DNA of 64,000 nt from contig CP136063.1 in NCBI GenBank assembly GCA_032622095.1, positions 61,703,897 through 61,767,896 of the forward strand, written 5' to 3'. The notes under the pieces were generated by a model, which saw only the letters and a program-made list of their open reading frames with translations, searched no databases and was not told where the DNA came from. The stretch is from Siphonodentalium dalli (lineage: Eukaryota > Mollusca > Scaphopoda > Gadilida > Siphonodentaliidae). Below, piece by piece: positions 12,579 through 51,284 of the stretch (position 1 is its first letter; every line of letters starts with the position of its first letter). The position numbers and the translations under genes were made by a program.

Positions 12579-12582
12579 TTAA

Positions 12583-19805: not shown

Positions 19806-21860
19806 TTGAAAAACAACACTAAGAAGCTAGCATATATTGAGACAATTTTAAAGAAAAAGATTAAAAGCTTCAATGATATAGAGAAAACTGAAACGAAAGA
19901 TGGAGGGAAATGTTTAACCATTAACTTAGATACCCTCATATTTGAGAAATACAACTGCGGTTTCGTCAGCAGATATTGGAATTCTGTGAAATGTGTTGAA
20001 AAAAATGGCGCCTTATGGAAAATAGTAACTGACCAGAACAATGTTGTTGCTGGAGATTTAATCACTGTATGTCGCAAAAAGCCAAAACGGAAGGTAACGA
20101 TTCATATTTACAAGACCAATAATAGTTTCATGATACAAGGTTCAAAGAACAGTATTGATTGGTGGTTACAGGTAGAGTTGCCACATGTCTACCAGTTTGC
20201 CTTTAAGAAGCAAATATCTGGGAAATCGAAACAGGATATGGCACTGAGCAGCGATTTCATTGTTCCGTGTATAGCAGCAGTAGCAGCAGATACTAACCAG
20301 AATGTCTCACCACAAGAAAGAAGTTCTCACACACTACGCTCGTGTTCTGTCGCGTTAGTCTCACCCAAACTTCGAGTAAATTTGCATAAGAAGAAGTTGA
20401 ATTACAGTCAGGTGTCTTCTTCAAATATGAGGAATAAGAAAAATCCATGCACCGTGACGCTCATCACACCTAAACCTAAAAAGAACATGCAGCAAAGAAA
20501 ACTTTTCTTCAGTGAGTCATCTGCATCTAACAGGATGAAAATAACATTATCCGAACTTCAATCTTTAATCGAAGAAATGATAATCGACAGAGCAAAAACG
20601 GAACGTGAGTTTAACACAAGGATTGCTAAATTGGAAGACAATATTAATGATCTCCAAAAGCAAAACGTGTTGTTGCAGAATAAGCAGTCTAAGCCTCTTT
20701 TGAAAGAAATGGATAAGGTCAACACAAAAAAGGAACGCGAATTCAACGAAAAGATTGATACATTGGAATGTGATGTCAATGACCTACGAAAGCAACATGT
20801 GTCATTGAAAAGTAATCTGTCACATATTATCAAGTCACAGAAACCTATTCTAGAAGTTGAAAAGAGTGCTTCTTCTGGCCAAGTGCAAAATCCAGTGGCC
20901 AGGATAACGGCTGAACGCGTTCAACCTATTTCGAGTGCGGTGGATAACATGTGTGTAACAGATCCCGATAATACAGAGAAATACATCGTGGTACCTGCAG
21001 TTGAAGTACACAATCGTTTCACTCCGTTGGATGACTCTATGAAGAAAACGACTCAGCAAAATTTACATTCGAAAAATGCGATAAATCTAACATCAAATTC
21101 TCAACGAATGTCACAAAGAGTCAACCCCAGAAAAGTACATCTGATCGTTGGCGACTCAGTCTTGCGTTACCTGGATCCGAAAAAAATGTCCCGAGGTGAT
21201 TATGTCAAGAAAGTTTCGATAGGAGGATTGAGATTGGAAGGCGTGTTGGAATGGTTTGAGTCATCGGATGTCATTGAGAATGTGCACAAGATTACAATAC
21301 ATGTCGGTATAAATTCTTGTCGGCATGGAATGGAAACAGACGAGCAGTTATTTACAGGTGTGATATATAAGATCCGAGAATTGTATCCACAAGCGCTCAT
21401 CAGATTCTCTTCAGTACTACCGACACCTAGTCGAGCTGGTGCGAATAAAGTCATTTATTCTACTAATGAATTATATCGACGCCTATGTTCAGGGATGGGG
21501 TGCCAGTTCATCGATCATGCGCCCAGTTTTTCAGAGCGCAGTGGTTTCGTCCCACGTAGATATTTTTATGACAACTGGCATCCAAGTGATCTTGGAATAG
21601 AGATGTTGGTGAATGACATAAAAGTTGGAGTCATGAACGTACAATCTGAGCAGTACCGAGAATCTTCAGAAGCACAAAACAGTGAAATCAGACCCAGGGT
21701 AAGAATGAACAGAAATGAAAGTTCAAGATCTAATGAACAGTTTCCAAAAGAAGTGCATCGCGCACGTTTTGTTGATAATGTGGGGGCGATGAATGTGAAT
21801 GACATTTCAGGATTGCGTGCAATACTCGCAAGTGCTCTTAAAATAATTGGTAATGTTTAA
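19806..21860 (+). CDS. LINE ORF1 protein, SGNH esterase type
   Basis: A 684-codon open frame. Residues about 1-140 form a basic N-terminal domain with the VTIHIYKT...IQG pattern seen in ORF1-like proteins of marine invertebrates. About 245-345 is a coiled coil (LEDNINDLQKQN and LECDVNDLRKQ repeats). About 447-600 is an SGNH hydrolase: GDSV near 449 (Ser), GIN near 500 (Asn), and DNWHPSDLG near 588 (Asp/His). All four catalytic positions are kept. ORF1 proteins bind RNA and form the retrotransposition particle; the esterase role is unsettled. The listed start is a TTG codon and the frame opens at 19,779 without an ATG, so the true start is lost, upstream by splicing, or truncated. The frame is unbroken although ORF2 is not. 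Confidence 0.85.
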   Translation: MKNNTKKLAYIETILKKKIKSFNDIEKTETKDGGKCLTINLDTLIFEKYNCGFVSRYWNSVKCVEKNGALWKIVTDQNNVVAGDLITVCRKKPKRKVTIHIYKTNNSFMIQGSKNSIDWWLQVELPHVYQFAFKKQISGKSKQDMALSSDFIVPCIAAVAADTNQNVSPQERSSHTLRSCSVALVSPKLRVNLHKKKLNYSQVSSSNMRNKKNPCTVTLITPKPKKNMQQRKLFFSESSASNRMKITLSELQSLIEEMIIDRAKTEREFNTRIAKLEDNINDLQKQNVLLQNKQSKPLLKEMDKVNTKKEREFNEKIDTLECDVNDLRKQHVSLKSNLSHIIKSQKPILEVEKSASSGQVQNPVARITAERVQPISSAVDNMCVTDPDNTEKYIVVPAVEVHNRFTPLDDSMKKTTQQNLHSKNAINLTSNSQRMSQRVNPRKVHLIVGDSVLRYLDPKKMSRGDYVKKVSIGGLRLEGVLEWFESSDVIENVHKITIHVGINSCRHGMETDEQLFTGVIYKIRELYPQALIRFSSVLPTPSRAGANKVIYSTNELYRRLCSGMGCQFIDHAPSFSERSGFVPRRYFYDNWHPSDLGIEMLVNDIKVGVMNVQSEQYRESSEAQNSEIRPRVRMNRNESSRSNEQFPKEVHRARFVDNVGAMNVNDISGLRAILASALKIIGNV

Positions 21861-22180
21861 TTATTTCAAATCGTAATTGATGATGAGTATCATGAGACCA
21901 CATGTATGTATATGTATAAGTATATATGTAGTACGTGCCTGTGTATGTACGGGTATGTATATGTATATGTATATGTGTACATATATATATGTATGTTGTA
22001 CATGTATGTACATATACATGTATGTATGCATATATGTGCATCTTAATTATCTATTTTCTTTGCATGTACAGGAAGTACTTGCATTTGAGTGATTGAAAAG
22101 TTATAGATAGTACAATTTGAATATATACCCTTCCTGCATGGTTTCATTCTGACTTCGGTGGTGCAAGTTTTATTCATATT

Positions 22181-25100
22181 ATGTCTGAGCGGAATATTTC
22201 AACTGAAATTACGTCGAATAAAGCTACCTTTACATTGTGGAATGTTCAAGGAATTAAATTAGATGACAACAGTTTCCTCGAAAAGTTGATAAAGTATGAT
22301 TTTATAGCTTTGGTAGAAACATGGCATAAAGAAAGTTTCGGATATTCATATTCCGGGTTATAAATGCATACATTTCCCTAGACTTGACGGTGATAGAGGT
22401 GGAATTGTATTTTATTATCGCAATCAATACGCAAGATTTTTCGTAAATTCTAAAAGAATAAGTGAGTTTACCATTTCCGTCGAATTCAAGGGAAATATGT
22501 TTAATATTTCTAACAAAATTGCTTTCATAGCCAATTATATCCCCCCTGCCAACTCCAGTTATTGGGATACAAGAAGTGATATGAAGACAAATGTGTTTTC
22601 GCAAATTCAGAATCATTTACTACATTATCAAACATGTGATCTTATAATTATGGCAGGTGACTTTAATGCTCGGACGGGAATTAAACCGGATCATGTTGTT
22701 GGAGAAAATGATCGCAGTAATCACCATATACCAGTACCTGATGATTATATATTAGATACAAGCAAAATAAGGACTAGTATGGATTCGAATGTTAACAGTT
22801 TTGGTGACCAGTTATTGGCCGTCTGTAGTAATACAAGCATGAGAATTGTTAACGGGCGTACATTGGGTGATGCCTTAGGCCATTTCACTAGTTACCAATA
22901 TAATGGTGCTAGTGTCGTTGATTATGTTATAATATCGGAAATGTATTTGTCCGATATCGATTATTTTTGTGTTAAAATACCTACCGAACATTCAGATCAT
23001 TGTCAGCTAACGGCTCATTTTAATTATTATACAACGCAGGGCACAACAAAACATGCGTTTATTCAGACAAAATGTAGATTGAAATGGACTATGAACAGCA
23101 AAGAAATAGCACTGGATCACATTCAGAAGCCGGAATTTCAGAATAAACTCGAACGATATAAATTAATGACTTACAAAAACGATCGCGTTGGTACCCTTGC
23201 GATATTGGATGACTTTATGTCAATGGTTAATCATATAAATTATGTATCGTGTACTCATATTCCAAATCGTAGAAGAAAAAATAAAAGGAAAAGAAAGTGG
23301 TTTGACGAAAGGTGTAAGACATTAAAGTTAGATCTGAAGAACACGATTCATAACATGAGACAAAATCCATTCAATAACTCTCTTAGAGTTAAGTTTTTCG
23401 TCACTTAAAAAGCCTATAAACGGGAACTGAAACTGAAACGAAAAACATTTTATCAAGATTTATACAATAAACTGGAAAATATGGAATCTAATGATCCAAA
23501 AACATATTGGGATATTATCGGGGAAATGCGCATCAAACCTAATCATTCACATGATTTGGATCCTGATAGAGCAGTTGACTTCTTCACTGAATTATATTCT
23601 ACAAATAATATACCACCAGTCAAGAGAAATATTATGTTGAAACAGATTAATGTTGATAACACAAATATTACTTCTTCCGAAATTTTGGCGGCAATCAGTG
23701 AACTTAAACTTGGTAAAGCCGAGGGACCGGACAATATCAGTAACGGGCTTCTGAAAACAATTGGTCCGCACATTGTGTTTGAAATTAAAAAACTGTTCAA
23801 TCAGATATTATCATCCGGGCATTATCCAGATAGTTGGAGTAAATCTGTTCTTAGTTTAATATACAAGAAAGGTGACCGTAACGACCCTAATAACTATAGG
23901 GCTATTGCGGTCAGTTCTACCATTGGTAAGTTATTTAATAAAGTTATTAATCAAAGAATGAATAAATATCAGGAAGTGAACAATATTATAAGCGACAACC
24001 AATTTGGATTTTGTAAAGGGAAGAGCACAACCGACAGCGGTTTTATTCTTAAAACAATCATAGATAAATACAGGATTTCTAAAAAACCTTTATATATATC
24101 ATTTGTTGATTTTAGAAAGGCTTTTGACTCAGTTAACAGAGATTTACTCATGCTAAAACTTAAATCTATAGGCATTTCAGGTAGGATTTATGACATAATC
24201 CAATCAATGTATGATTCAAGTTTTTATAGCGCAAAAACGAACAAAGTGATTGGGCCATCGCGTTTGTCGCATGTTGGTGTTCGTCAGGGTTAAATTATAT
24301 CGCCCAATTTATTCAAAATTTTTATAGATGATATCAAGTATGTTTTGAGAAGACCTGTGATCCAGTTAATGTGGGAGACTCAAAGCTCAATCATTTATTA
24401 TTTGCCGATGATCTTGTTTTAATCTCAAGCACTCAAACTGGACTTCAGTCTTGTCTAAATAACTTAGGCTCATATACGCTCAATAATGGGTTAAGCATTA
24501 ACGTTGAAAAAACAAAATGCATTATATTAGGATCTAATTGTCAAGCAGGATCTCCTAGATTCTCGATAGGAAATGAAATTGTTGATGTAGTTAATGAGTT
24601 TCCATATTTAGGAATTAAATTTTCTTCTAACGGCAAATTTTCAAGTGCTCAAAATGAGTTATCATCTAAAGGTAGGAAAACATTTTATTCGCTTACTAAT
24701 GGCTTCAACGCAACAGCTATTCCGCCATTAGATATTGTATCCAAGTTATACGATAAGCTTATCAAACCTATCGCTTTATATGGCTGTGAAATTTGGGGTT
24801 CTGAAATAACGCCGAGTAGCCGATACAAAATGCCGTCTGAATTACTTCATACCAAGTTTTGTAAGAGAATTTTAGGTGTTGGTGATGGTGCAACTAATCA
24901 CGCTGTACGCGCTGAACTTGGTAGGTATCCTTGTTATATTGATGTCATATGCAGAATGGCTAGTTATGCACTTAAGTTGACCTCACATACTCGAAATGAC
25001 CTTTTATACAATGCTATTTGTGAACAAAGAGCGCGGAAAAGTATGTCAACGTCAATATTTAGAATACTAGAGGCATATGGCCTCGATTTAGATCCCGGCA

Positions 25101-25642
25101 TAGATTTATCAAACAACAAATTTAATGTAATTGTCGGTAAACTTAAGCAAAGATTACGAAACGAACACGTCGCCGAATTTATCAAATCGATCTTTGATGA
25201 CAACAAGAAAAGTGGTGAAAATAAATTACGAACTTACAGGCTTTTTAAAGATAATTATTCTATGGAGAAATATCTTATTGGAACAAAATGTGTGGAAGAT
25301 AGAATGCGTTTTACAAGGTTAAGGACTAGTAACCACAATTTATCCATTGAAAAGGGTCGACATTTCAAACCGAAGAAGAAATCCATTGAAGATCGAATAT
25401 GTTTACATTGTCCGATCAAACAGAAACTAGTTGAAGATGAATTTCATTTTATAATGAAATGTCCGTTATATGCTGATTTGAGAAATGAACTATATGAAGT
25501 AATGAAAGTGCAATATAATGGATTTAGCGCTATGTCAGAAACTCGGCAATTCAATTTGATTCTCAAAAATGAAAAACCAGATTCTTGTTATAAAATATGC
25601 AGCTTGATTAGAAAATGTTTTGATCGAAGATCCCAGCAGTAG
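22181..25642 (+). pseudogene. LINE ORF2, endonuclease-reverse transcriptase, broken
   Basis: Starts at ATG 22,181. The APE-type endonuclease shows WNVQG, ALVETWHK, GDFNARTG, VVDYVI and SDHCQL. The reverse transcriptase shows NNYRAIAVSS, QFGFCKGKST, FVDFRKAFDSV, VGVRQG and FADD (24,401-24,412). The C-terminal end has a zinc-knuckle-like C-x2-C...HFIMKCPLY (about 25,400-25,460). Four lesions are visible: a frameshift near 22,350, a TAA at 23,406, a TAA at 24,291 right after VRQG, and a frameshift near 24,355. This copy cannot make the enzyme. The two TAA codons are single-base changes, so the copy is not very old. Confidence 0.9.
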
Positions 25643-25915
25643 CAACTATGTGTAGAGTATTATTCAACCAAACTGTATGGTTGCATCCTTTACATGTATA
25701 TAAATGTATATAAGGTAGTTTTTATTTTAAAGTATTAAGTGCACTTATATATATTATATTGTATAGGAAATACTAAATAACTAATTATATATTCAATGAA
25801 ATAACTACATCACTTGTGTATATTACTTGTTGTATTTATTTAATATTGTTATTGTGTGCATACTGCCTTACATGGTGTTTTATGCTAATAAATGTTATGT
25901 TATGTTATATTGTAA

Positions 25916-27169
25916 TTTGAAATAATTATAGTTTAAGTACCCCTAATATTATTTTTTTAAATATTTTGAACTCATTTAGTCATCCATTAAAACGAAACCA
26001 AAACGAGATTACGAAATGTTTTTCTGAGACAGTTGATCAAACAATACAACAGCCCTAAAATTAACTTGGATGACCGATTGCGCAGTATCTATACCTGCAT
26101 GAATTGCATATGTTGTGGATTGTGTCCGCTGTGTATGAGATGTGTAACCTTGTTTTGATTGATTTTAATAAGAATAGTTTGCACCTGCAAAGAGGGAAAC
26201 GCGTGCAACACTAAAATAGATTCGGAAAGACCGGGAATCTGTACCCTCTAACAAGATAATACTTGTTATATATACACATTTGATAAATTATGTTTATATA
26301 TAAATACAGTGTTTTAGGTTGTCAATCTAATGCATATTCAGGTGTTTTTCTATGATTAAAAACGAAAATTATTTGAACAGGGAATTATTTCATACTTGTG
26401 AGAAATTTCGGTCGGAGGGTTTTCCAAGTTTTTAGTCACGTGATATTTACAATCCATTTTGTCAAAGTTTGCCTTCGATCTGTCCGTTTTGGTCGCGTGG
26501 TTCTGCTGACTTGTGGGGGATCTCCGGGGGTTGGTTGATTTGGGGAATCGATATCTAGTCTCCCTGGGCTGTCATCAGTGGGTGGTTCCTCGGATTGAGT
26601 ACTTCAATATAATACACAATGTTTTAAGTAATCAGTTTGTATTAAAATTTGGCTGTCTCTTATAGGTGACTGGAATAACGTCAATAAAAGAAATGGAATG
26701 CTTGCCATTTGTAATCATGTGGGAATTTTAGTCCATCATATGACAAATACGCTACCTTACAGGTCAATATAAACTGTATTTCACCAATATTCAATGGCAT
26801 ATTGAGATTGATTACTTTGATATAATGGGCATACTTTGCATCATTGGGATACCTCAGTCCTGTGATAAAACCACATATGGTCAGAAGAACTTTATGATTT
26901 ATTCATTTGGTCATTTCAGTTAAGTATGACATCAATTACAACCTATCATATATTGAAAGATAGTATGAATTGAAAGCTGAATGAGAGTACTATCTTTTGA
27001 GAGTTGAGTAAAAAATAAAATAAAATAATAGTATTAGTGAATAATATGTCAGGTCAGGTGGTCTTCGCTTAAATATTTTCGGTTGTTGGAGGTAGTAATA
27101 TCTTGCTGCATAGCTGACATTGATATGGAATGATTCAGTGTGTTTTCATGTGTATATTCAAGGTGCATT
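25916..27169. other. Intergenic DNA, nothing recognised
   Basis: Lies between the LINE 3' end and the B zinc-finger remnants. It has short AT-rich stretches (for example AAAATAAAATAAAATAAT near 27,012) but no frame, repeat or RNA gene I can support. It does not match the left flank of copies A or C, so the left edge of copy B is a junction near 27,170. Confidence 0.4.
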
Positions 27170-28243
27170 GTTAAGAGAATCCATTCTCACACATGCAACA
27201 TGTACATAGAGTTTCTCCCGGGCGGATCCTTGCGTGTTTAGCTAACTAAGCTTTTTGAGTAAATCTTGTCTCACAAATAACACAAGTATATGGCGTTTCA
27301 CTTGTATGTATCCTATTATGTGCAACCAGCTGACCCTCACAAATGAATTCCTTCTCACAAGAAACACCCGTATATGGTAACAATTAATTCCTTCTCACAA
27401 GCATCACCCCTATATGGTAACAACGAATTCCTTCTCACAAGCATCACCCCTATATGGTAAACATGAATTCCTTCTCATAAGCATCACCCCTGTATGGTAA
27501 CATTGAATTCCTTCTCACAAGCATCACCCGTATATGGTAAACATGAATTCCTTCTCACAAGCATCACCCGTATATGGTAAACATGAATTCCTTCTCACAT
27601 GCATCACCCGTATATGGTAACCATGAATTCCTTCACACAAGCATCACCCCTATATGGCAACTTATCCTTATAGATACTCATGTGTCAAGTCTATTTTGTT
27701 TCACAAACATCGCATCTAAACGGCCGATCTCCTATGTGGATCTTCACATGTTGTGTCTCTCGTTAGCTTTGAATCAAGTCACTCACATAAACGGCGTTTC
27801 ACCCATGTGGATCCTCATGTGAAAGATTAGACTAGTCTACCTCGTGAATTTCTTCTGACAGAGGCCACAATTATAGGGCATTGGATCTGTGTGCATTTTC
27901 GCGTGTTTGGCGAGGCTTCCTTTTTTACTTAATCCTTTCAGACAAATATCACATTTATGTGGCGTCTCTCCCATGTGGATCCTCATGTGCACAATCAAAT
28001 CACCAATATGAGAGAATCCTTTTTGACAAGTATCACAATTGTATGATTTCTCCCCCGCGTGGATCTTCATGTGTACAGTCAAATGACTTATCGCAGTGAA
28101 TCCTTTCTGACAAATATCACATTTATATGGATTCCCACCCGTGTGGATCCTCATGTGTACAGTCAAATGACTCATCCGAGCGAATCCTTTCTGAAAAATA
28201 TCACATTTATATGGTTTTTGGCCCGTGTGGATCCTCTTGTGTA
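27170..28243 (-). pseudogene. 3' part of zinc-finger gene B, cut off
   Basis: Minus-strand continuation of the B array beyond the 4.7-kb insertion. Three to four fingers remain in frame (27,837-28,175), for example FTAISHLTVH, FSHIGDLIVH and GLSKKGSLAKH, ending in QKKFTR and a stop. Further left only finger scraps remain (27,180-27,340 and 27,660-27,830) around a 40-bp minisatellite. Without the insertion these would be the C-terminal fingers of the gene at 32,961-34,449. Confidence 0.8.
27341..27660. repeat. 40-bp minisatellite made from half a zinc finger
   Basis: Eight units of exactly 40 bp, each carrying GAATTC or a one-base variant (27,345, about 27,385, then 27,425, 27,465, 27,505, 27,545, 27,585 and 27,625). 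On the minus strand one unit reads PYRGDACEKEF, a first-half finger whose first Cys is Gly. Since 40 is not a multiple of three, the amplification destroys coding. Confidence 0.85.
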
Positions 28244-28500
28244 CACACTTAGAAATAAAAAGCCATATAGGTACTAAGGTAGTACCAATATGTCTGATAG
28301 TACCAGACCAACAGGTATTGAGAAGAATATGGTTCTAAAAATTGATATAGTACCACACCATGTTGGTACTATCCACTCTCAGAACCTGAATGTTAGCCAC
28401 GTGATAATTCATTTGGCACTAGCGCGATCTCGGTACCCAAGTGTTACCCACGTGCTGGCATCACGTGATAATTCATTTGGTACTAGCCGATCTCGATAAA

Positions 28501-28692
28501 ATGGCGGCGTCTAGCCACTTCAAGTTGATACGATTGAGATTTTTTACAGTATATAAACATGGACGAAGAGACAAACAAACATCAGACTTAGACATTTTAT
28601 GTTGGGATCGGACTGGGCTTACATGTTGTAGTATATATGCCAGTTTAGGTACGTTGTTCGCTCGCTGGGTGGATTTAAGATTAGGGAAGTAA
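28501..28692 (+). CDS. Unrecognised short ORF inside the 4.7-kb element
   Basis: 63 codons from ATG 28,501, starting MAASSHFKLIRLRFF and ending RWVDLRLGK. It is basic at the N-terminus with no motif I know. The element could have picked up a host first exon here, but nothing beyond an open frame and a good ATG context supports that. Confidence 0.15.
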   Translation: MAASSHFKLIRLRFFTVYKHGRRDKQTSDLDILCWDRTGLTCCSIYASLGTLFARWVDLRLGK

Positions 28693-30289
28693 CTTCTCTG
28701 AAATTCATCAACATATTTTTGTGAAGGTGAAATTGTACCTAACTGGCTTCTCAATAACCTGGAATATTGTCAGCACTGTGTGGATTATGGTTGTACATGG
28801 ACGGGACAAGATGATATATAACCTCCGAAAAAATAACGGGCGTTTACATAATTGAAAGCAGCTATTTTCGGTGACTGAGCTAGACCAAATTGAAAAGTCA
28901 CTGAGTGCAGTGTGGTTTAATACATGCACAACACAACAGTATTGTGAATTACAAAAGACAGATACTTAAGTTTCACAACATTATAAACCGCCCAATTAAC
29001 TCACAAGAGTCAACCACTGGTGACTATGATTACGAGACATCCAATTCTGTAGAAATTAGTCAGAGTTATGACGTCAAAGATCAGTCATGACTCCTGACTC
29101 CTGAGTCAGTAACAAGTTTGATGGCTACAACGTACAAGTACCTGTGCAAAGGACGACGGATAATATTCTTCAATTTTCATCGAAACGTGATTTGAGAACC
29201 ATGTCGCCATGACTTGTCGCCTACATGTAGTTACGGATTCTGATATTCTTTTGATCGAAACGCCTGTGATGCTGTGATATTGTTCTGATATATTTATGGA
29301 ATGGTGGATAATGTCGGAGATATGGATCCAATTCTGGGACACACGTTATAACTGAATCAATCGCAAGCTTTTAGTAACGTACTACAGCTATGCTCTAATT
29401 AATCACCCCCTTTAACAAGGTTGTAGGGCGTTAATGACAGTCAGACACCGGTTATACCATACCGCCGTTCAACCATGGTCAAGTGGTTGATATGTGGCAA
29501 CCGCAGATAATCTTTATACAGTCTTATTAATAATATTGTGTGACCACTGTACGCCGCACTAATTTTGTACATGGACACCTTGTAAACACCCAGTCCAGCT
29601 TTTCATCAGCGCCATGCACCATATTAACTATACACAAAACAATATTTCAATTAATAATTTGTTTACGGTTTTATTAACATTCAAAGTTGGTCACTGACCG
29701 ACATTCGCAACTACTCGTAATATCGGTGGCCAATGTCGTTAAGGGGGAGGGGTCAATTAGAGCTTAGCTGTATACATACATGAACATGTAGACCATTCCA
29801 ATGTCCAGATGCTTCATGTTCTTATCAAAACATGTCTGGCTACATGTGTGGTTATCATTCTGAGCGGTTCGGCCATTTCCGCTAGGAAATAACCTCATCC
29901 ATAACTGGAAACCATATTAGCGAAATTCTACATTATATGGCTCTGGTGATCAGGCAATGCCACTGACTTGATGACGCTGCGCATATATGCGAATGGAGAA
30001 TAATTTATTAACTATGGCTTTACCAAACTTTATCATATATTAAATACATTAAACTCTCTTTGTGTTACATGTATCTTAGTATTTGTTCATTTACTGATAC
30101 AGCGCATTGTAAGTGTACGATAAGCAAAACACTGAACACCGTGGAAATTTTTTTGGGAGTGTGATAATAATTCTGGTAACCCATTCAACACCTCCTTGTA
30201 GCGAGGACTAGTGAGCGCTATAGCGGTATTTTTCAAACAACAGTTTTAATTAACCAAAGTTAATGGTCTCCCCATTTTTGAGTATTTTG
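28693..30289. other. Interior of the 4.7-kb element, no feature seen
   Basis: AT-rich DNA with no convincing frame, repeat or RNA gene on either strand. Confidence 0.35.
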
Positions 30290-32180
30290 CTTATCGCACA
30301 CTATTTACAAAGGTTTGGGAGTTATCGCAAAGATTTGCTCCCTTGGCTGTGAATGACCGATCGGTCTATTTTAGCATGTCCGGGAAATTATAGATTGATA
30401 GGTTGGTCACTCAACTCAGTTTAAGATGTCTGATTTATAATGTTCACAGAAGCCCATTATCGGCAAAAAGCCTTTGCGACAAATCTCAAACATCTTTGCG
30501 ATAAATCGCAAAAATATAATCGCCCAGTACGTAGTCTGAGAGTTATCATAAAGATGTTTGAGATTTATCGTAAAGGTTTGTGTGTTATCGCAAAGGTTTG
30601 CTCCCTCATCACTCATGCATCTGGCTATGAATGACTGATCGGTCTATTTTAGTCCGACCGGGCATAGATTGATAGGTTGTTCACTCAGACCTGTTTAAAG
30701 ATGGATTATCTCTTTGTAAACATGTATTATATAGTTACCGGGGTATAAAATATTAGATTTGAATCGAAGACTCCTGTCCGGAAATGCTTCTATCGATTAA
30801 TATTAATTTTATTTCGAATATTATCTGGTCTAAAAACGTGTGTTTGTTCAGCTAACGAACAATAGTGGTTACTGTTAACATAGACCAGAAATTATATTGT
30901 GCAATTTTGTCACAAATAAACGTTAATTATACTCATTATCGCTTATATCTGTGGAACAAAACAATACAAACAACCAATCTGTGACATTTGCCATTCGTTG
31001 CGTAGCCGTAGGAACAGCCCAGTGCTCTATATCGCAATACGGTCTCATCCGAATGGTCGGTTCTAAAAATAGTAACATAAATGGGCCCGATTTAATATTC
31101 GAAATAAAATCAATATTAATTGATAGAAGCTTTTCCGGACATAGGTCTTCAGTTCATATCTATTATTGTATACCCACGCAACTATTTAAAATGTGTTATT
31201 TAAAGAGATAATCCATCTTTAAGATGTCTGATTTATAATATTCACAGAAGCCCATTAGTGCAAAAAAACCTTTGCGACAAATCTCAAACATCTTTGCGAT
31301 AGATAAAAAAATTTATTCACACAGTACGTAATCTGAGATTTATCGTATAGATGTTTGAGATTTATCGTAATGGTTTGCGTGTTATCGCGAAAGTGTTTGT
31401 GGTTTTTCGCAAAGTTGTTTTGTGATTTATCGCGAAGGTTTGCTCGCCTTATCCCACATGCATCCCACAAGTTTTGCTCCTCTCAACATTCTTGCATCTG
31501 GCTGTGAATGACTGATCGGTCTATTTTAGCCCGACCGTTCAATTATAAATTGATAGGTTGTTCACTGAGACCTGTTCAAGATGGCTGATTTATAATGTTT
31601 ACACACAAATTAAGAAATTTTTAGCAACAAAAAAGTTTGCCACAAATCTCAAACATGTTTGCGATAATTCGCAACATTTAATCACCCACTACGCAGTCTG
31701 AGAGTCCTCGTAAAGATGTTTGAGATTTATCGTAAAGGTTTGCGAGTTATCGCAAAGGTGTTTGTAATTTTTCGCAAAGTTGTTTTGTGATTTATCGCGA
31801 AGGTTTGCTCGCCTTATCCCACATGCATGCTTGCTGCCAAAGAACGATCGGTCTATTTTAGCCCAACCATGCTATTATAGATTGATTGGTGGTTTACCCA
31901 GACCTGTTGTAGATGTTGGATTATATTTATATGGTTCAAGTCCATTAATGCCAATGCATGAAAATATATCTGCGATAAATCACAAACCATTAATCGCAAA
32001 CCTTTTGTAATCAATCGAAAACCTTTACACTAAATCGCATATACCGGTACTTATTGCAAAGTTGTTTGCGATTCGCAAAGGTTTGCGATTTATCGCAAGG
32101 TAGTTTTTTTATTTATCGGGCTATTCTAGATCGATCGGTGTTTCATCGAGACCAGTTCCAAGATGTTTGATTTATGTTTA
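30290..32180. repeat. Tandem array of about 300-bp hairpin-bearing units
   Basis: Landmarks such as GATCGGTCTATTTTAG recur near 30,358, 30,637, 31,516 and 31,846, with a degraded copy near 32,115. Each unit has an inverted pair: AAATCTCAAACATCTTT (30,481-30,497) with its exact complement at 30,550-30,566, followed by repeated TTATCGCAAAGGTTTG words. One unit is interrupted by a TTAA-1 element. Confidence 0.75.
30699..31218 (+). mobile_element. TTAA-1 element, reference copy (520 bp)
   Basis: TTAA at 30,695-30,698 and 31,219-31,222. Left end AGATGGATTATCTCTTT and right end AGATAATCCATCT are inverted repeats. The arms match imperfectly for about 140 bp, including TGTCCGGAAA and TATTTCGAATATT. 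The neighbouring tandem unit gives an empty site, CAGTTTAAGATGTCTGATTT (30,417-30,436), against the filled CTGTTTAA...TTAAGATGTCTGATTT. The 86-codon frame inside (30,951-31,211) is open in several copies, but a protein is unlikely. Confidence 0.95.
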
Positions 32181-32739
32181 CTTAATATTATTGCACACAA
32201 ATTAAGAAATTATTTTTGGACATTCAGACCAATTTTACTCCACATGCAGGGAACAGGGAATCCTGAAATCGAGATCTTAAACTTTGATTTAAGTTCAAAA
32301 TCACGATCAAGGTTATACTAATAAAAGTAATGCATGTATAATTCGGATTATTTCATTATCACTATGCAATGGAGTGGTTTTGTACTTTATTCAATGTTTA
32401 AACGCCATAGCTTCATTTGGAATCTAAATTGCCACATTGTTAAATTTGCCGTCGGCCATGTTTCGTAATTTCGAGTGCTTGGTATCTGGGCAGGTTCTCC
32501 GCTTAGTACCTATATGTTTGGTTCTGTGGAGTACCAAATTGCTAGGTACTATGCATAGTACCTAAATACTTCAGAGTACCTGTCTTTATATTCGGTACTT
32601 CATATAATATAATGGGTGTGTATTTCTTGGCATTTCATGTCGTGTGCGTCATGACTTCGGTGACATAAAGGCAGAGTGGGTATTATATGCACAATGCCCG
32701 GATAGAACCTAAATATTTAGTAGGTAATCCAGAGTACCA

Positions 32740-32890
32740 ATCATATTGGTACTCTAGAGTACCTAAACTTTTGGTACTCCAGAGTACCACTTTTGGTACT
32801 CCAGAGTACCTAAACTTTTGGTACTCCAGAGTACCTAAACTTTTGGTACTCCAGAGTACCACTTTTGGTACTCCAGAGTACCACACAGTT
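32740..32890. repeat. GGTACT palindromic repeat cluster near right end
   Basis: Seven closely spaced copies of GGTACTCCAGAGTACC or near variants, separated by ACTTTT or TAAACTTTT. The 16-mer is an imperfect palindrome. Similar but looser words lie at 28,280-28,370 near the left end, so this looks like subterminal binding sites. Confidence 0.85.
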
Positions 32891-32960
32891 GGTACTCCCC
32901 CTGGGACAAAGCTTAGTACCTACGTAGGCACTCTGAAGTACCTATTTTTTTAAGAGTGTA

Positions 32961-34449
32961 GAGTCAAATAACTCATCGTAGCGAATCCTTTCTGACAACT
33001 ATAACACTGATATGGTTTCCCGCCCGTGTGGATCCTCATGTGCGCAGTCAGACTACTATTCTGTGTGAATCCTTTCAGAAAATATCACACTTATATGGAT
33101 TCTCGCCCGTGTGGTTTCTCTTGTGCGCAGTAAAATTACTCATCTGAGTGAATCCCTTCTGATAAATATCACACTTATATTTATTTGGTTTCTCTCCCGT
33201 GTGGATCTTCTTGTGTACAGCCAATTGACTCATCTGAGTGACTCCTTTCTGACAAATATCACACATAAATAACTTCTCTCCCGTATGGATCCTCTTTTGT
33301 ACAGTTAAATTACCCATCTGAGTGAATCCTTTCTGACAAATATCACATTTAAATGGTTTCTAGCCCGTGTGGATTTCCTGGTGCACAGTCAATTGACTCA
33401 TCCAAGTGAATCCTTTGACAAATATCACACTTATATGGTTTCTCACCCGTGTGGATCCTCATGTGCACAATCAGATTACTCATCTGGTTGAATCCTTTCT
33501 GACAAATATCACATTTATATGGTTTATCTCCCGTGTGGATCCTCTTGTGCACAGTCAATTGACTCGTCTGAGTGAATCCTTTCTGACAAATATCACACTT
33601 ATATGGATTCCCACCCGTGTGGATCCTCTTGTGTACAGTCAGACTACTCATATGAGTGAATAGTTTCAGACAAATATCACATTTATATGGTTTCTCTCCC
33701 GTGTGGATCCTCATGTGTCTAGTCAAAGGACCCATCAGAGCGAATCCTTTCTGACAAATATCACATTTATATGGTTTCTCGCCCGTATGGATCTTCGTGT
33801 GTGCAGTCAAATTACTCTTCGAAGTAAATTCGTTCTGACAAATATCACACTTATATGGGTTCTCGCCCGTGTGGATCCTCTTGTGTACAGTCAAACTACT
33901 CATATGGGTGAATCCTTTCTGACAAATATCACATTTATATGGTTTCTCGCCCGTGTGGATCCTCTTGTGTACAGTCAAATTACTCATCTGTGTGAATCCT
34001 TTCTGACAAATATCACATTTATATGGTTTCTCGCCCGTGTGGATCATCTTGTGTACAGTCAAATTACTCATGTCAGTGAATCCTTTCTGACAAATATCAC
34101 ATTTATATGGTTTCTCTCCCGCGTGGATCATCTTGTGTACATTCAAATGACCCACCTGAGCGAATCCTTTCTGACAAATATCACATTTATATGGTTTCTC
34201 GCCCGTATGGATCTTCGTGTGTGCAGTCAAATTACTCTTCGAAGTAAATTCGTTCTGACAAATATCACACTTATATGGTTTCTCTCCCGTGTGGATCCTC
34301 ATGTGCACAGTCAAATCACTCATCTGAATGAATCCTTTCTGACAAATATCACATTGATATGGTTTCTCGCCCGTGTGGATCCTCTTGTGTACATTCAAAT
34401 GACTCATCCCAGAGAATCCTTTCTGACAAATATTACATTGATGTGCCAT
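32961..34449 (-). pseudogene. Poly-C2H2 zinc-finger gene B, 5' part
   Basis: ATG at 34,449; the protein begins MAHQCNICQKGF, the same layout as A and C. Twelve full fingers are read to about 33,430, then a 2-bp loss in the QKGF codons (TCCTTTGACAAATATC) shifts the frame and the open frame stops at 33,349. Further fingers follow at 33,075-33,317 and to 32,961 with another one-base loss near 33,078. Helices are the most varied of the three genes: GMSH, QMSD, SKSN, QVGH, DMSN, QMSN, HMSS, LMGP, QTSQ. As it stands it could encode a 366-residue, 12-finger protein with an odd tail. The original array was severed at 32,959 by the 4.7-kb element. Expression is unknown. Confidence 0.85.
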
Positions 34450-34472
34450 CTCTCCTGTTTCTTTAATAAAAG

Positions 34473-34589
34473 AAATAAAATCAATATTAATTGATAGAAT
34501 CTTTACTGGGCAGGGATTTCCATCTCTTACGTATTATTTAATACACAGGAAACTATATAATATTTGTTATTCAAAGAGATAATCCATCT
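34473..34589. mobile_element. TTAA-1 right-end fragment
   Basis: About 117 bp of the right arm, ending AGATAATCCATCT then TTAAGATTATAAAC. A matching fragment is at 55,174-55,291 in C (followed by TTAAGATCATAAAC), so it predates that split. Confidence 0.8.
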
Positions 34590-34593
34590 TTAA

Positions 34594-37396
34594 GATTATA
34601 AACTCCCATTATTTTACTAGTCTCTTTGGTATAAAACAAAAACATCTCTGTTTGTTAGTTTTAGCTCCTTTATCCACAAGAAGGTAAATAGGCAAGCGAT
34701 GAGTTATGTCTTCCACAAAAAATACCAGCGGTAAATGATGAGATGATAGTTGGAGAATATAATGTCAATGAGGGTTGCACGACATTCTATTATTCTTGTG
34801 GGTTTAGTTATTGTTCGTAGAAACATAAATGACTTCCATCGGTTTGAGACATTCTTATGGCATTATCAGTATTTATGTTCATGTTGCAATCTCCCACCAG
34901 GAAACATTATTTGTTCTCCTTATATGTATTTAGTTAGTTAGTAATGTTCAAGTTTTTCAAGAAAGATATTGACGTCAGAATGTGGGCATCCAAGTTGATT
35001 CTTGTTTATATGATCACGGATTTCAATAAATAAGCTTTCAAAGATTTTCATGAATATAGATAAGTCTGCTCGAACTTGTGCTTTTATGTTATCATTAACA
35101 TAAATTCCAACACACCCCCTTCTCTGTCATTCCTATGGTTTTCCTATAAACAGTAACTCCCCGTTTTGTCGGTCCTTTGGATAATCAGCTGTCAGTCAAG
35201 TTTCAATAACACCTATTAACGAACCAAAGCCGGACGATTTGGGTCGTATATAGACTATACATGTACATGTATCAGATTTTGTGACGTCACCAATTATTAT
35301 CTAATACGACGCTGTTGTTTTGAATTTCGGGAGCGCGAATGTCGCACAGTAGATCGGTGGGCTTGAAGCATTAATGTCGTAATCGGCTGCCAATATGCCA
35401 ACCCAAATCAGTCGACCTGCAACATTCTCCTATTTATATAAACATCATAAAATAATTTATTTGTGTTTATTTATATGGGAAAGTAGGTCCATACTGAATT
35501 CTAACGGGTCTACCCCGGCACTCTACTGGGTCAAATCATCGGACCCTAGGAAGTTTTAATATTTTTTTAAATAAACTAGAATCCAACTCTCAGTATAAAA
35601 AATCTTGTGTTGAGAACAATAATGTTCTGATGAGTAGACCGATTTACTGTCACAATTGCGAGTTTATTATTTATTTGGGTACCGGTATTTTAGGCCCGTT
35701 GTGTACATGTATGACACGCCAAACACGGGTCATGCTATCTTAGCTTGGCTTGACATTGGCCCGTCTCTGGCACTTGTCACGTTTGTTTGATTTATACATC
35801 GAGCCATTTTAGCATACCGGTATATGATACAAAATTATGTCTGCTATAATAAGTTCCCATGGGGATCACTACGAAGATACGCCGTGATGGTGTCATCTGA
35901 AAATACACTACCTGTATAATCTGGCCCTCCTTGTGTCTTTATTTATACTTCTATTAGTACATATAATTTAATCTCGGACACGCTATCGGTGGTTTCTATA
36001 TCGGGATCTTGTCATTCATCTCCCTTTAACCTTTGTGTGTACCTCTGCAATATATTTATCCACACATTTCGTGAAAAAGTCCTTTGTCAGTCAATGTCCC
36101 CGTATACTAACGTACTATTGCCTTCAATGAATATTGACAACGATCAAGAGTCTGTAGTCTGATGATTTTATACGCCATTTCGCGCACTTCGACCAATCCA
36201 AAATAACCCAAACATTGTAATCCAATAAATCGAAGGGGCCCAGTAGCGACCAATAAACTTACCGATAATGTTATACTGTAAGCATCACCAATCGAAGTAC
36301 AATGTACCGGTGCTTCCCGTTAATGGTTTACAAGCCTATCTCACGTGAACAGGGGCGATGTATGAAATGATATGTCAAATGGTTGTAGATCAGATGAATT
36401 CCAGTGATTTATATCCGAAATGAAGTAGTGTGAAAAGGTGAAGCCTAATTCAGAGAATGACAACGGAATTGAGATGAATGATGTACAGAAATAAATTATC
36501 CCTTAGATGTCACATACTTGTGATAATATAAATTGATGGAGAAGTGAAAATGAGAACCTAAATATGAGATGCATAGATGTAATATAATGAGTAGTGTTAT
36601 CATGAGTATTGAACGACGAATGAAATAATCATATATGAAACACACGTACATCACTATGCATCAGATGTGTCACTCATATGGTCACAACCCCTATCTCACA
36701 TACAAATGCATAACTCACATATGGGTGTGTGTATATACACCATACAATAACGATGAAATGGACACAATAACAAAAAGATTACAAATAGCCATAATTATTC
36801 ATAGCCAGTAAGTCCCAAAACAAAGAAGTCCCGATATCAAAGATTCAAACGCCGATCATATTGGCTTTACAGTACACGATAAAACGACACAATACTCGTA
36901 CACAAATTACTAGCAAAATTTGCAGAAGAGATAAATAAAGTAAACCTACATGTACACATCGGCGGGATAGGCTATATATCAAAATTTCTCGGACCAACCG
37001 TTTAATATCATGTCAATAACCTAAAACTAAATAGTTGGTATCATGCATCGTCACCTTTTATTGAACTATTACCACAAGTATTAATAGGCAATGAATATTT
37101 TTCCAAACCATTATTCATGGATTCAGATGCAGTTTCAGAATGGTCGATCTACAAATATCACTGAAGAAAAAAAAATTCCTTACCTACAAGTAGAAAATAT
37201 AGTATATATGTAAGTAATAGTCTACTGGCGATGATGTGCCAGTATTCGTCAAATGTCGGATTTGTTGAAGTGCTCTTCTGAAGAAAAAACATGACTCGCC
37301 AATAGTTGTGTAATCGCTGGCGATTCCATGAAGTCGGAGTCTAGTGGGTGTGGATCTCCAGGGTGGCTGTGCCTCCGAGTTATGACAGCCTCTGGT
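34594..37396. other. Three-copy noncoding spacer (copy B)
   Basis: Matches A 6,780-11,543 without the A-specific elements. It contains the CRE-like palindrome (35,281-35,290), a single 37-bp minisatellite unit (36,552-36,588), a local deletion near 36,806-36,838 and the empty TTAA-1 site near 37,080. The 63-codon frame at 34,750-34,941 is also open in C (55,554-55,745) but is not open in A; coding is unproven. Confidence 0.55.
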
Positions 37397-39144
37397 CAGG
37401 GGCGGCGGAAGCTACAAAAAAGTGGGGGGGGGCACCATTTAAAAAAAAAAACTACATATATGAATTAAACCAGTCGCAGACAGCGGTATCCCCCACTGAA
37501 ATGTGCAGTTGGGGGAGTGCTGAAAATATCTGGCCGGACCTGGTTTGCGAACTTGTTCTAGATACTGGTCAAGTGAACTCATATACCAAATATCTTTGAA
37601 ATCCGTTGAAATGTGTGGAAATGAGCCCTGTGACGTCGTCCATTTGCACACAAAAAAATAAACAAAGTCCAATAACTCTGCTAAAAATATCCGACCGGAC
37701 CTGGTTTGCGAACTCGTTCTAGATACTGGTCATGTGAACTCATATACCAAATTTTTTGAAATCTGTTGACATTTGTGGAAATGAGCCCTGTGACGTCGTC
37801 CATTTGCACACAAAAAAATAACCAAAGTCCAATAACTCTGCTGAAAATATCCGGCCGGACCTGGTTTGCGAACTCGTTCTAGATACTGGTCATGTGAACT
37901 CATATACCAAAAATCATTGAAATCCGTTGACATTTGTGGAAATGAGCCGTGTGACATCGTCTATTTGCTATTTGGTAAATTCAACAAAAATAATAAACAA
38001 AGTCCAATAACTCCGGTAAAAATAACCTGCCGGACCTGGCTTGCGAACTCATTCTAGGTAATGGTCAGGTGAACTCATATAGGCCTACCACAAATCTTTG
38101 AAATCCGTTGACATTTGTTCCAGTTATGACTTACAAATTCGGGACGGACAGATGGCTAGACGGACAGACGGACCCCATTCCTATATCCCCCGCCAAATTG
38201 CAATAAAAGTGTTTTCAAATGTGCTCCAGCGCAAAGATTGTTTAGTATGATATGGTATTCGTGGTTACCATTATGAATGTAGAAACAAGAAAGAGTTTAA
38301 ATGATGCTACTCACTAATCTTTGGAGCCAATGTGTGAAATATGACTGCATGATAACGTTGATACAACTTCTACAACCTGCATCCTTTGTCACAAGTGTTA
38401 TGATGAAATTAGTATACAATATACTGTATAATCCAATTAACTCCACATACGACACACGTTGATATCGAAGAAACAATAATCACAAGTAACTTTGAATATT
38501 AAATAACACTACAATATATATGTACAGACACTGATCTTGCCAGTACACAGTAAACTTTTGTAGAACAAAATTATTGTAACTTTTCTTATTTGTCAGTAAT
38601 TACTAATTAGCTGAATTGATAAAAATCCTAGTCAAGCTATTCCAATGAATACTCAGCATCAACTGATAGCCTATATAGCATGTGATCCAATATCAGGAGT
38701 TTGACCACCTTGGCATGAAATTGTATACCTGCCAAGTCCCACGTTTGCAGTTTTATTGCAGAAACTAAAATTTAAACCCTTCATTGATATGATGAATGTG
38801 CTTTTAATTAGACAAGTTGCTGTGTCCAAGACATGGCTCTGATGGTATCCCCAGAAGACCTGAGATCTACAAAGAACTCAGAGTCTGTAGTCTAATTCCC
38901 AGAGGGCAATTACTCAGACAGAGTGTCAATACTGACCAAGGGATTAACTTGCTATCTTGCTAGCCATAGCCATAGGGGCATAACTGATAAGATTAAACAC
39001 ATGTGTTACCATTGGAATGTTTTCTTGGGAACCAAAAAATATTTTCTCCATTGTATTTAGTATTGGAAGATTATGTACCCATAATTGGGGGAAAAAAGTG
39101 GGGGGGCACGTGCCCCCTGTGTCCCCCCGGCTCCGCCGCCCCTG
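37397..39144. mobile_element. hAT-like non-autonomous element (1,748 bp)
   Basis: Flanked by an 8-bp duplication CCTCTGGT (37,389-37,396 and 39,145-39,152). Ends are CAGGGGCGGCGGAAGC and, complemented, CAGGGGCGGCGGAGCC, a typical hAT CAGGGGC start. Inside are about four tandem units of 160-177 bp (37,510-38,120), each with GGCCGGACCTGGTTTGCGAA, and then a GGACGGACAG stretch. No transposase frame. Confidence 0.85.
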
Positions 39145-39997
39145 CCTCTGGTGGTCTAGGAGGTGTGATTCTCCAGGGTGGCTGTACCTCCGAATTATGG
39201 CAGCCTCTGGTGGTCTAGGAGTGTGAATCTCCAGGGTGGTTGTACCTCCGAGTTATGGCAGCCTCTGGTGGTCCAGAATTGGCAACACAAGCTGCGATAT
39301 TACAGTTTATTCACAAATGAAATATTCACACATGGAGATGCCTAGGACTAGTCAAAGAATCACCCTTTACAACAAACATGGATATGATAATCTGGTTGTC
39401 GAGACTCGATTTTGAGGTGAACCTAGAACAAATTGGTGACACGGTGCCTTTGTTGTCATTTTGCCGGGCAGAATCTGGGGAACATTATATCCTAAATTCG
39501 CTGAAATCCGTTTTGGGGAAAAAATTGTACTGTTCTTTGAAATAGGGTCGTATTTATGACTTTTTGCTGTTCCTTATTAGTCCAGTCAATCAGTTGGAAA
39601 GAAACCCCCAACTAAACAAATTGCTATCCAATGTTTTGTTTTTGGTGTGTTTGAATGCGACTATACCATGTACTAACATAGCCAAATACCCACGAATCCC
39701 AGGGTGGGAAAGTCAATTAAAAATGGTGAAAATTGTAATTTTGTAGTTGAGACTCGGATTTTAAATGAAGCTATATCAAATCGGTAAAAAGCTGCTTTTT
39801 GTGTTATTTTGTCGTGAAGAATCTGGGAAACAATATATCCACAAAAAAACCGCTGTGGGGAACATTTTCTACAGATCTTTGAAATGGGATCCTATTTATG
39901 GCTGTTTTGTGTCAGTTTTATAGTTCCTTATTAGTCCATTCAAACTGATGGAAAGAAACGCTCAACCGTGAAGAAATTTTCTATGCAAAGACTTTTG
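39145..39997. repeat. Duplicated spacer with local tandem repeats (B)
   Basis: Contains about three units of roughly 60 bp around CTCCAGGGTGG...GCAGCCTCTGGTGGTC (39,145-39,275), then DNA matching A 11,610-11,930. A second, diverged copy of part of the latter (starting AGACTCG near 39,745) makes an approximately 345-bp tandem pair. No gene. Confidence 0.5.
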
Positions 39998-42559
39998 GGG
40001 TGCTATTCACCGGCTGGGTTTATAATATAGTCCAGGTAGTTTTACGAGGCGACGCTCAATGCGAAGCTATCGGTGGACATCGATGGGAAGACATCGCCGC
40101 GCGGTATAGGATTATCCGATCAAGGCGATTGGCGTCAATCATAGATTGACCATCGGTCACATAAACATGCTGCGTGTAACAGTACACGTTTGGTTCATTT
40201 CAACAATGAGCAACCGAGGAAAATTACGTGGGGCAAAATATACCACCGACGACATGGGGGGTCTACAAAAAAATTTCAGTATATAGGGCCGGGGTGCGTG
40301 GGTGGTTCAGAGGCCCAAACAATCATGCTTGTAAATTTACAAGTACTGACCATGTAATGTTGTTGTAAGCATGTTAATATCATGTTTGTTGGCATATGGC
40401 TATATAGACAGCTATAGTGACTAATATAGCCTCAGATTTAGCAACCTTCTGGATTTCACAGGATCCCGTCCCACTTCACAGTGGAAAACCGTAATTTATT
40501 AAAAAAAATATATATATTACCCAGTTGTATTACCCGAATAAAAGTAATAAAATAAAAAAAAAACTGTATCACAAATACTACATGGAGAATACTCAATGAT
40601 GACCAGATATCATTAACCCGATTTTTGCATAACATGAAATTGAAAAGGGTATCTCATAAATTTCTAATGTCTGAAATACTGTCTTGTTCTGGCATGCAAT
40701 CAAATTAATTCCTTCTGGTTATTTCTCATCTTTAATGATTGCAAGTAATGTTAATTTGCAACACTTATCCAAATAAAACTGAATTGGTTATGATGAATGA
40801 CCGTTACTGTTTATTGTTCAGACAATCCCAACTGAAGGCGACGCTATTCTCCTTGAATTTACGAACTTCATCTTGAAGCTTAAATACTGCTCAACAAGAC
40901 TAAACTAAAATACTAATTGTATACTGTTATCGCCTACAAATAGATGAACTGAAATAATGTGATGCATTCAGATGCTTTGAGAAATGTCATTCTTCAATGT
41001 CTTCAAAGTCAAACTAAAATCAAGAATAAAATCTGACTGAGACTATACTGCAGACTCTAGTGCACACATATACATACAAATGGTTGAGTTATAATAATGC
41101 AAAATGTGTTTACGGGTAGAACCAGGTTGGTAGCTCTGGTATGCATCGACAAGCGAAACCTGTGATGTGCAGTAATATATGCATACACCCTTCCGCTATC
41201 ATTCAGGTCTATCACCATACCAAACCACTTAAAAATTCGACAACCGACACTTCAACTTATATTGCAAAAATAAATATACTGAATTTCATAAACAGGGCCC
41301 ATGGATAACTCTGGTAGGCATTGGTGCTCACAATCCGTGATATTATGCATATTTGTTCCCCATTTCTGGTCCGTCACATGTCATAGAGCATCAAAATATG
41401 ACAACCGACTCTTGAGTTATAACGCAAAATGTTTGTATGGACGGACGCATGGACGGCTCGAGACGTCAACTATATACCCGCCGACTAATATCGGGGGTAT
41501 AATAACCATATATCTATGTGTATACTTAACCAAAACAATTCCCCTCCTCATCACCCCTGTGGATAAGACTAAAGAGTTCTTTGATCATGCACACATAATT
41601 GTAGAACCCCTGAACTGTTTACCACTATTTACACTGGCCAGTGTTCTCTGTCAGACTAAACACGCTCGATATATAAAGGCTATAATGCGGTCTAGGGCAA
41701 TTTGTGACATACAGTGTACATACACAATGCTTTATTATTGTTGTTAGATACTGGAAAACCAGGAAACATCTGGAAATAAAGTTTATTTTTCGTTTTTCTG
41801 ACCTGTGATTTACCGATTAAGCATGTTATTGCTTGAGTCTTAATTTTACACAGTTTGCACCAACAAAGGACAGTGGAATGGGATTGAAAGGCAGTTAACA
41901 CAGTTATTGAAGAACGGCTGAAAAAAACTCTTGAAATTTGGATAAAAACATGAGAAAGGGGGTGGGTCCCTAACATTTGGAGGAAAATATTTACACAAAT
42001 GGGGTGGTGGGTCCCTCGGGGTCGGAAAAAACGTTTTGGGCCCCTATATGTGCAATTGTTTTCCAGACCCCCCCCCCCCCCCACCCCCACTGCCGACGAA
42101 CGTAAAACGTTTTTGGGCATTGTGGAGAGAAGAATAAAAATATTTAAGAACAAAGAAACCGGCACCATTCACCAGCGCCGGAAAACAAACCAAAACCAAA
42201 ACACAAAAAAAATTCTTTTGAGACGTTATCTTCTCGGCTCTTCATTTTCACACTGTGCTAATTAAAAAACCTCATTAATATCAATGAAACTCATTCTGCA
42301 GATGTATAAACGCCAGCATGAGTCTCCACACAATTATACCAAAAAATTATACCACTATACATGCCGATTGTGGCCGGTGAGTGTTCATGAATTAGTCGTG
42401 AGACGGCGTCAATTGACAAGTGACAAATCTGATAGATTGGATCAATCACACCATCGACAGCGTGTGTCGTTTGCGCTAAAGCAAAGATACCTTTGCGTTC
42501 AGCCGCTACCAAATAAACTACCTGGTTTATAAAATAGTCTCGCTTGGTGAATAGCACCC
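39998..42559. mobile_element. 2.6-kb element with GGGTGCTATTCACC ends
   Basis: The left end GGGTGCTATTCACC and its exact complement at the right end are flanked by TTG (39,995-39,997 and 42,560-42,562). Copy A reads through without it (GATTTTTGGTGTATTTG near 11,911-11,927). A 3-bp duplication and GGG ends suggest PIF/Harbinger-type movement, though TTG is not that group's usual TWA target. No transposase recognised. Internal DNA includes an approximately 230-bp near-tandem pair (41,100-41,440) and a C run at about 42,069. Confidence 0.7.
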
Positions 42560-43443
42560 TTGGTGTTTTTGAGTTAGACTATACTTATATAATACCATAT
42601 ACCAAATTTCCCATGAATTCCAGGATGTTTTGGGTCAAAAGACAGGAATATGTAAAAGGAATGGTGCAAATTTACAAACAATATTTAAGTTTAACAGATG
42701 GAATGATACTGTTAAGTATCTTTAGCTTTCATCTAGCTTTCATCTGTGAAAACTGCAAATAGTTGGAGATTAGGTTTGTTCAGTCTTCAGTAGTTCAATC
42801 AAATTGAAGTGGTATTACACAATACAGTACAGGAACAATGGCAATTTGATAAAATCCACCTGGTTATCAGGTGGGATCTCATAAGACCAAATGAATAATT
42901 AATATTGTTTCTGCACTATATTATTATACTTTAATTTCCTCCAATATCATGAAGAGTTACAAACATATATACAGGCTAAACATATACATAAAGGTTCTGG
43001 ATGTATAGATATACACATAACAATATTCTATATACACGTCAAATAACTTATACACGGTATGTGAACGAGGGGAAAATTATAATGTGACACAAAGGTATAT
43101 TTCCAATTAATATGGGCACTAGTACCAAAGTGCGCATTATGTGACTTGTGCTAAAGTTACAAGTAATTAATAATAATATTGAAAGAAGGTATTTGTCATT
43201 TTGTTAAAATGTTCACAGTATGTATCGACTGGTGTGATGAGCAAACTACTAGCCTGGTTCGATGTGATAAAATTTTCAAATATTCGCAGTCACTCTGACA
43301 AAAAAGATGACAAGATCCCTCCAATCCGAGTCAACTGGAATATCGGATGGGTGATGACCAAGGAAGCAGGCCAGTAGCTCATCCTTTTCCAGTCCGTCTA
43401 CATGCAGGGAGGCCTCAATCCCAAACTGGTCAAGAAAATCCTG

Positions 43444-51190: not shown

Positions 51191-51284
51191 ACGGGACTAT
51201 TTTTCTCTCTATAAGTACAAGCCCCAATCAACCCTGTCACTTGACCCTTTTATTCAGCTATTAAAAGGCATGTGTGTTGCAATA

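Follow-up and report, generated by a model that had tools for sequence, protein, structure and literature searches.

In a 64-kb window of the Siphonodentalium dalli genome (the whole stretch of 64,000 nucleotides that we analysed), we characterized a repeat family, TTAA-1, which is a non-autonomous MITE: its inverted repeats are imperfect and about 125 bp long, its ends measure 17 bp, it folds back strongly, and its copies have no protein-sized frame in common. With a unit of about 520 bp, TTAA-1 is probably a Kolobok-type cut-and-paste DNA transposon. We treat this membership as provisional, since purines (RR) at the ends are a weak mark on their own and the Kolobok identity of the transposase is what we infer.

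Copies of TTAA-1 in the window

The copy at 30,699-31,218 (plus strand) starts with AGATGGATTATCTCTTT and finishes with the reverse complement of those 17 bases, with TTAA at both flanks. Using this copy as the BLAST query against the window, we obtained ungapped 520-bp matches at 16,815-17,334 (plus, 97.7% identity), 10,604-11,123 (minus, 97.1%) and 12,059-12,578 (plus, 91.3%). These four align without gaps, which bears out the count of four copies of exactly 520 bp in an earlier note on this DNA. The description of the whole family as uniform at 520 bp holds for these four of the six complete copies and fails for the other two. The copy at 60,312-60,818 (minus, 89.6% identity) has 507 bp, and an older minus-strand copy, split by the 10,604 copy into a right part (10,201-10,603) and a left part (11,124-11,223), has 499 bp when the nested copy and one TTAA are subtracted.

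The window also holds three partly paralogous blocks, A (about 200-15,100), B (34,600-42,900) and C (47,700-63,900), pieces of which are about 80-95% identical. The 60,312 copy is the C paralogue of 10,201...11,223 and lacks the nested copy. Besides the two parts at 10,201 and 11,124, the same BLAST search returned partial copies at 1-225 (minus), truncated by the window edge; at 1687-1839 and 2769-3117 (plus), the two parts of an old decayed copy whose left part lacks the outer 27 bp and whose right end adjoins TTAA; at 49,754-49,907 and 50,853-51,190 (plus), the C paralogues of those two parts, the right one with its terminus gone; and at 34,462-34,589 in B and 55,174-55,291 in C (both plus), two paralogous right-end fragments that adjoin TTAA. 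Together, all TTAA-1 copies cover about 7% of the window.

Ends, inverted repeats and coding capacity

A scan for the 17-bp end, with up to three mismatches and without requiring TTAA, located 16 sites in the window, where shuffled sequences led us to expect 0.99 (the largest shuffle gave four), and all 16 were termini of TTAA-1 family members. When the pattern included TTAA minus one A, the same 16 ends stood against an expectation of 0.06. Scanning for TTAA-flanked inverted 14-bp ends at most 6 kb apart returned 36 pairings, many of them redundant, which included all the complete copies, while ten first-order random sequences of equal length gave one pairing in total. A further inverted pair of 14-bp words adjoining TTAA, alike at 12 of 14 positions, was seen at 14,158-16,120; it lies within an inverted repeat of about 320 bp (14,054-14,373 and 15,898-16,223).

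The two terminal motifs named earlier, AGATGG and AGGTGG, are both present, but they are the right and left ends of one element rather than marks of two element types. AGATGG forms the right end of all six complete copies and AGGTGG the left end of five, the exception being 30,699, whose left end is AGATGG; all six therefore have the termini 5'-AG...CT-3'. In the 30,699 copy, the left terminal inverted repeat spans about 125 bp (30,699-30,823) and the right one, on the opposite strand, about 126 bp (31,093-31,218); the two match at 105 of 126 columns and are identical over the outer 17 bp. Across the five copies compared, the left repeat measures 124-125 bp and the right 113-126 bp, with 95-105 matches in 125-126 columns. 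Folded as a single strand, the 30,699 copy reached -107 kcal/mol against -43 for shuffled sequences (z = -12.6; none of 100 shuffles as good).

The longest stop-free frames in five copies ranged from 76 to 110 codons. A 94-codon frame is the longest in the three copies at 30,699, 16,815 and 10,604, where it is one and the same frame; in 12,059 the longest has 76 codons, and in 60,312 it is a different frame of 110 codons. The 76-codon frame is open in 30,699, 16,815 and 12,059. All of these frames fall short of transposase size, and the five copies do not share one longest frame. TTAA-1 thus combines the structural features of a MITE: it is short, has terminal inverted repeats and a target duplication, lacks a transposase gene and occurs in several copies of similar size.

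Target duplication and empty sites

As had been claimed, TTAA-1 duplicates TTAA on insertion: all six complete copies have TTAA on both sides, and four empty sites can be read on both sides. Among the 16 ends, which were found without requiring TTAA, 15 abut it; the exception belongs to the window-edge copy, which abuts GTAA. We counted five independent insertions with an unfilled relative in the window, taking 10,201...11,223 and 60,312 as one. For the 30,699 copy, the unfilled relative is its tandem neighbour, around 30,417-30,425 (104 of 120 aligned bases identical); for 12,059, it is B 42,677 (105 of 112); for 10,201...11,223, it is B 37,076 (113 of 119), and the same insertion in C, 60,312-60,818, gave 108 of 114. 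The 10,604 copy sits in an internal TTAA of the older copy, and its empty site lies inside the C element, at 60,716 (115 of 120). Of the five empty sites proposed earlier, these four show one TTAA becoming two, while the fifth can be checked on one side only: the window-edge copy has GTAA at its flank against TTAA at C 47,724 (52 of 58 bases identical). The 16,815 copy has no empty site within the window. At 10,604 and 60,312, the neighbouring bases (ATTAA to the left of the element, TTAAT to its right) settle the length of the duplication as precisely four bases. For the four empty sites other than B 37,076, insertion into the filled copy is the simple reading, although precise excision from the empty copy is also possible.

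From a filled site alone, a duplicated TA lying inside TTAA looks the same as a duplicated TTAA, and the copies could then be a Tc1/mariner-type element reading AAGG...CTT whose TA targets happened to lie in TTAA. In the window, 404 of the 5,420 TA dinucleotides lie within TTAA. Since the targets of all five independent empty sites are TTAA, an outcome with a chance of about 2e-6 under random choice of TA sites, we take TTAA rather than TA to be the duplicated target; a TA element with a strong preference for TTAA would fit as well. The end motif of mariner elements is CAGT-like, and the ends of TTAA-1 are not. We therefore regard a Tc1/mariner-type origin as very improbable. Copying of the repeats by duplication of blocks A, B and C did carry some paralogues along, namely the pairs 10,201/60,312, 1687/49,754 and 34,462/55,174. 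As a substitute for transposition it has next to no chance of being right, because for five insertions the aligned relative has a single TTAA and no element, the 10,604 copy is located within another copy, and a search at E 1e-8 matched the flanks of 16,815 nowhere else in the window. Sola3 is a further superfamily that duplicates TTAA, with GAG-type ends. Its target suits TTAA-1, but the GAG motif differs from the AGG and AGA that we observed, and a Sola3 MITE seems quite unlikely to us. Size does not separate it from Kolobok, since the mean lengths of insect MITEs given in excerpts of PMC5199201 are about 428 bp for Sola3 and about 386 bp for Kolobok.

The remaining candidate is a piggyBac MITE with unusual ends, which we consider unlikely. 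The TTAA duplication at the empty sites agrees with piggyBac, whose MITEs share it together with terminal inverted repeats, and piggyBac inverted repeats are sometimes very long, up to 528 bp in Crassostrea virginica (excerpts of PMC10813416). The piggyBac end motifs listed in the same excerpts are CACTA, CCCTC, CCCTT and CCCAT, whereas TTAA-1 starts with AG at both ends in all six complete copies; the earlier remark that the ends are unlike those of piggyBac was therefore correct.

Probable assignment to Kolobok

Kolobok elements are described in excerpts of PMC9587614 as making TTAA duplications and having 5'-RR and YY-3' termini, unlike piggyBac. The earlier note had not assigned the repeat to any family. 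We found both traits in TTAA-1, namely a 4-bp TTAA target duplication and RR...YY termini (AG...CT) in all six complete copies, although RR ends weigh little because one end in four starts with RR by chance. On the opposite side of the balance, 94- and 76-codon frames stay open across copies, though they are far too short for a transposase.

Several described elements resemble TTAA-1. In Xenopus, ten full-length Kolobok elements (Table 5) are reported with AG termini, and the T2-MITEs combine TTAA with AGGRR ends (excerpts of PMC6004289). The T2-MITEs, which belong to Kolobok, are like TTAA-1 in their TTAA duplication, in their RR...YY ends starting from AG, in being short with terminal inverted repeats and no transposase gene, and in having amplified in waves. 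They differ in the AGGRR motif, which TTAA-1 lacks (AGGTG on the left, AGATG on the right), and the likeness is judged by description rather than by sequence. Likewise by description rather than by sequence, Kolobok1-Andl of Anopheles darlingi, which is 751 bp long with a 14-bp inverted repeat and is listed as degenerate, shares the size class and TTAA with TTAA-1 (excerpts of PMC6428116). The solo LTDRs of KolobokP are about 450 or 660 bp long and have inverted repeats of 11-18 bp and RR...YY ends; no strong target specificity is described for KolobokP in the excerpts of PMC9587614, whereas TTAA-1 has TTAA in all six complete copies and inverted repeats of about 125 bp.

We also considered the copies at 12,059 and 16,815, which lie on one strand 4.2 kb apart, as a KolobokP-like LTDR pair, that is, direct repeats around a coding interior. 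This reading was rejected because each copy has its own TTAA, the two differ by a K2P distance of 0.085, the bordering sequence runs on in B and C uninterrupted by the copies, and the interior contains no Pfam domain.

Since TTAA-1 carries no transposase gene, it would need one supplied in trans. For a Kolobok-type element, the 17-bp ends together with the repeats behind them would be bound by a DDD/E transposase from another locus, one with the C/DxxH signature of Kolobok enzymes. This transposase would excise TTAA-1 and join it to a 4-bp-staggered cut at TTAA, which would leave TTAA on either side of the inserted element.

Search for a transposase partner and for relatives

We searched parts of the window against Pfam, covering 10 open frames, six-frame readings of 25,640-30,402, 38,200-43,102 and 12,580-16,812, and four readings of TTAA-2 (a second TTAA element described below) plus six frames. 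No transposase domain was found in the parts scanned, which says little, as Pfam's coverage of the Kolobok transposase is uncertain. Above the cut-offs we obtained C2H2 zinc fingers, reverse transcriptase (three frames) and one GDSL lipase-like domain, and endonuclease matches stayed below the cut-offs. Stray matches with E values of 0.07-0.4, among them A_deamin, DUF5810, DUF2552 and Glyoxalase_5, were regarded as noise.

In the prokaryote and virus collections, the 17-bp end occurred in 20 viral stretches and at least 118 genome stretches. In a comparison of all 138 loci against the 520-bp copy, the best among the matches listed was 33 bp at 88%, and TTAA preceded one of the 138 end matches; we therefore judged these occurrences to be chance rather than relatives of TTAA-1. 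An internal 24-mer of TTAA-1 had no viral match, Rfam at gathering scores and ARAGORN returned no hits, and a literature search with 12-13-base words from the TTAA-1 ends gave matching titles that look unrelated.

The empty site in block B

The insertion at 10,201...11,223 and 60,312 is common to A and C, and B 37,076 has a single clean TTAA in its place. The closest pair of blocks changes along the sequence, which suggests local exchange or a complex duplication. B pairs most closely with C at 8,090-9,286 (1,158 sites; dBC 0.038, dAB 0.077, dAC 0.085) and at 6,781-7,048 (246 sites; dBC 0.061, dAC 0.098, dAB 0.114). Immediately to the left of the insertion, 228 sites make A and C the closest pair (dAC 0.057, dBC 0.083, dAB 0.114), and both lack two short insertions that are present in B; the 86 sites to its right favour no pair (0.035 each). 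A dAC of 0.269 from the first three-way alignment left of the B empty site had included unrelated C sequence and was replaced.

If the site followed the B-C tree, a Kolobok-type element would have departed from B seamlessly, a behaviour described in excerpts of PMC7351741 as special to piggyBac. Because the 228 left-flank sites put A and C closest and the 86 right-flank sites are indecisive, a pre-insertion site after local exchange appears likelier than seamless excision, and that B 37,076 is a donor site restored without a footprint would be distinctly improbable.

Age layers of TTAA-1

The copies at 30,699, 16,815 and 10,604 form a young group, with 12-15 pairwise differences in 520 positions (K2P 0.023-0.029). 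Their distance to 12,059 alone is 0.085-0.099 (8.5-9.9%); for 12,059, 60,312, 10,201 and the window-edge copy taken together, the range is 0.070-0.099. The old copies at 1687 and 49,754 lie further off, at 0.135-0.163, and the short fragments at 34,462 and 55,174 furthest, at 0.18-0.24. Ten sites divide the three young copies from 12,059, 60,312 and 10,201, while each of the nine alternative three-and-three splits of these six copies had no such site. At eight of the ten sites, the older 1687 and 49,754 copies carry the non-young base (49,754 is gapped at one), from which we take these eight sites to be derived in the young group. At the remaining two, the old copies side with the young group; at one of these, the window-edge copy sides with the older layer. 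This comparison draws on few independent events, as 10,201/60,312 and 1687/49,754 each represent one insertion.

The proposal that copies of equal length arose in bursts from one master therefore fits the three young copies with their eight derived sites but not 12,059, which belongs to the older layer. Equal length in 12,059 consequently reflects a stable architecture and not a single burst. The comparisons support one recent burst that would have come from one source, laid over older layers about 7-24% away.

The 10,201/60,312 pair has a K2P distance of 0.056, against 0.057 (uncorrected) in the local A-C flank, as would be expected if the element had inserted before A and C split. The young 10,604 copy is nested in the older copy in block A alone.

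A second TTAA element and other repeats

TTAA-2, at 1840-2768, is 929 bp long, with a terminal inverted repeat of about 324 bp and ends GGACTWTGCTAACCC; it lies inside the old TTAA-1 copy, and its C paralogue at 49,908-50,852 has 945 bp. It interrupts the old TTAA-1 copy (1687-3117) and the C paralogue of that copy at the internal TTAA that corresponds to position 177 in the 520-bp copy. TTAA is present at both of its flanks, and the empty site is visible in the uninterrupted TTAA-1 copies. Its GG...CC ends likewise fit the RR...YY rule of Kolobok.

Other repeats share the window with these elements. Tandem arrays with an 84-bp unit (28 codons) lie at 4204-5724, 27,931-28,245, 32,956-34,439 and 52,307-54,052; C2H2 zinc fingers were read at the 27,931-28,245 array, and the arrays may be a cluster of zinc-finger genes, whether intact or in decay. 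LINE-type reverse transcriptase frames with weak endonuclease matches occur at 19,806-25,642 and 44,694-46,553. In the former, a GDSL lipase-like domain lies upstream of the reverse transcriptase, an arrangement reminiscent of esterase-bearing CR1-like LINEs. Together with the partly duplicated blocks A, B and C, these features suggest an animal genome. A 37-bp minisatellite has about 40 copies in C (57,356-58,841) and about eight in A (9287-9594). A tandem array at 60,953-61,424 has a 152-bp unit with GGCGCACTTTTTGTCGCTT-like words in both orientations, and another at 32,723-32,898 is built of the palindrome GGTACTCCAGAGTACC.

Significance

Our analysis contributes a TTAA MITE family whose boundaries are well defined and for which one 64-kb window supplies several empty sites; the family is otherwise ordinary. 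Its young and nested copies are useful for working out the order of the local block duplications. For elements of this kind, TTAA combined with purine-first ends should point to Kolobok and not to an odd piggyBac.
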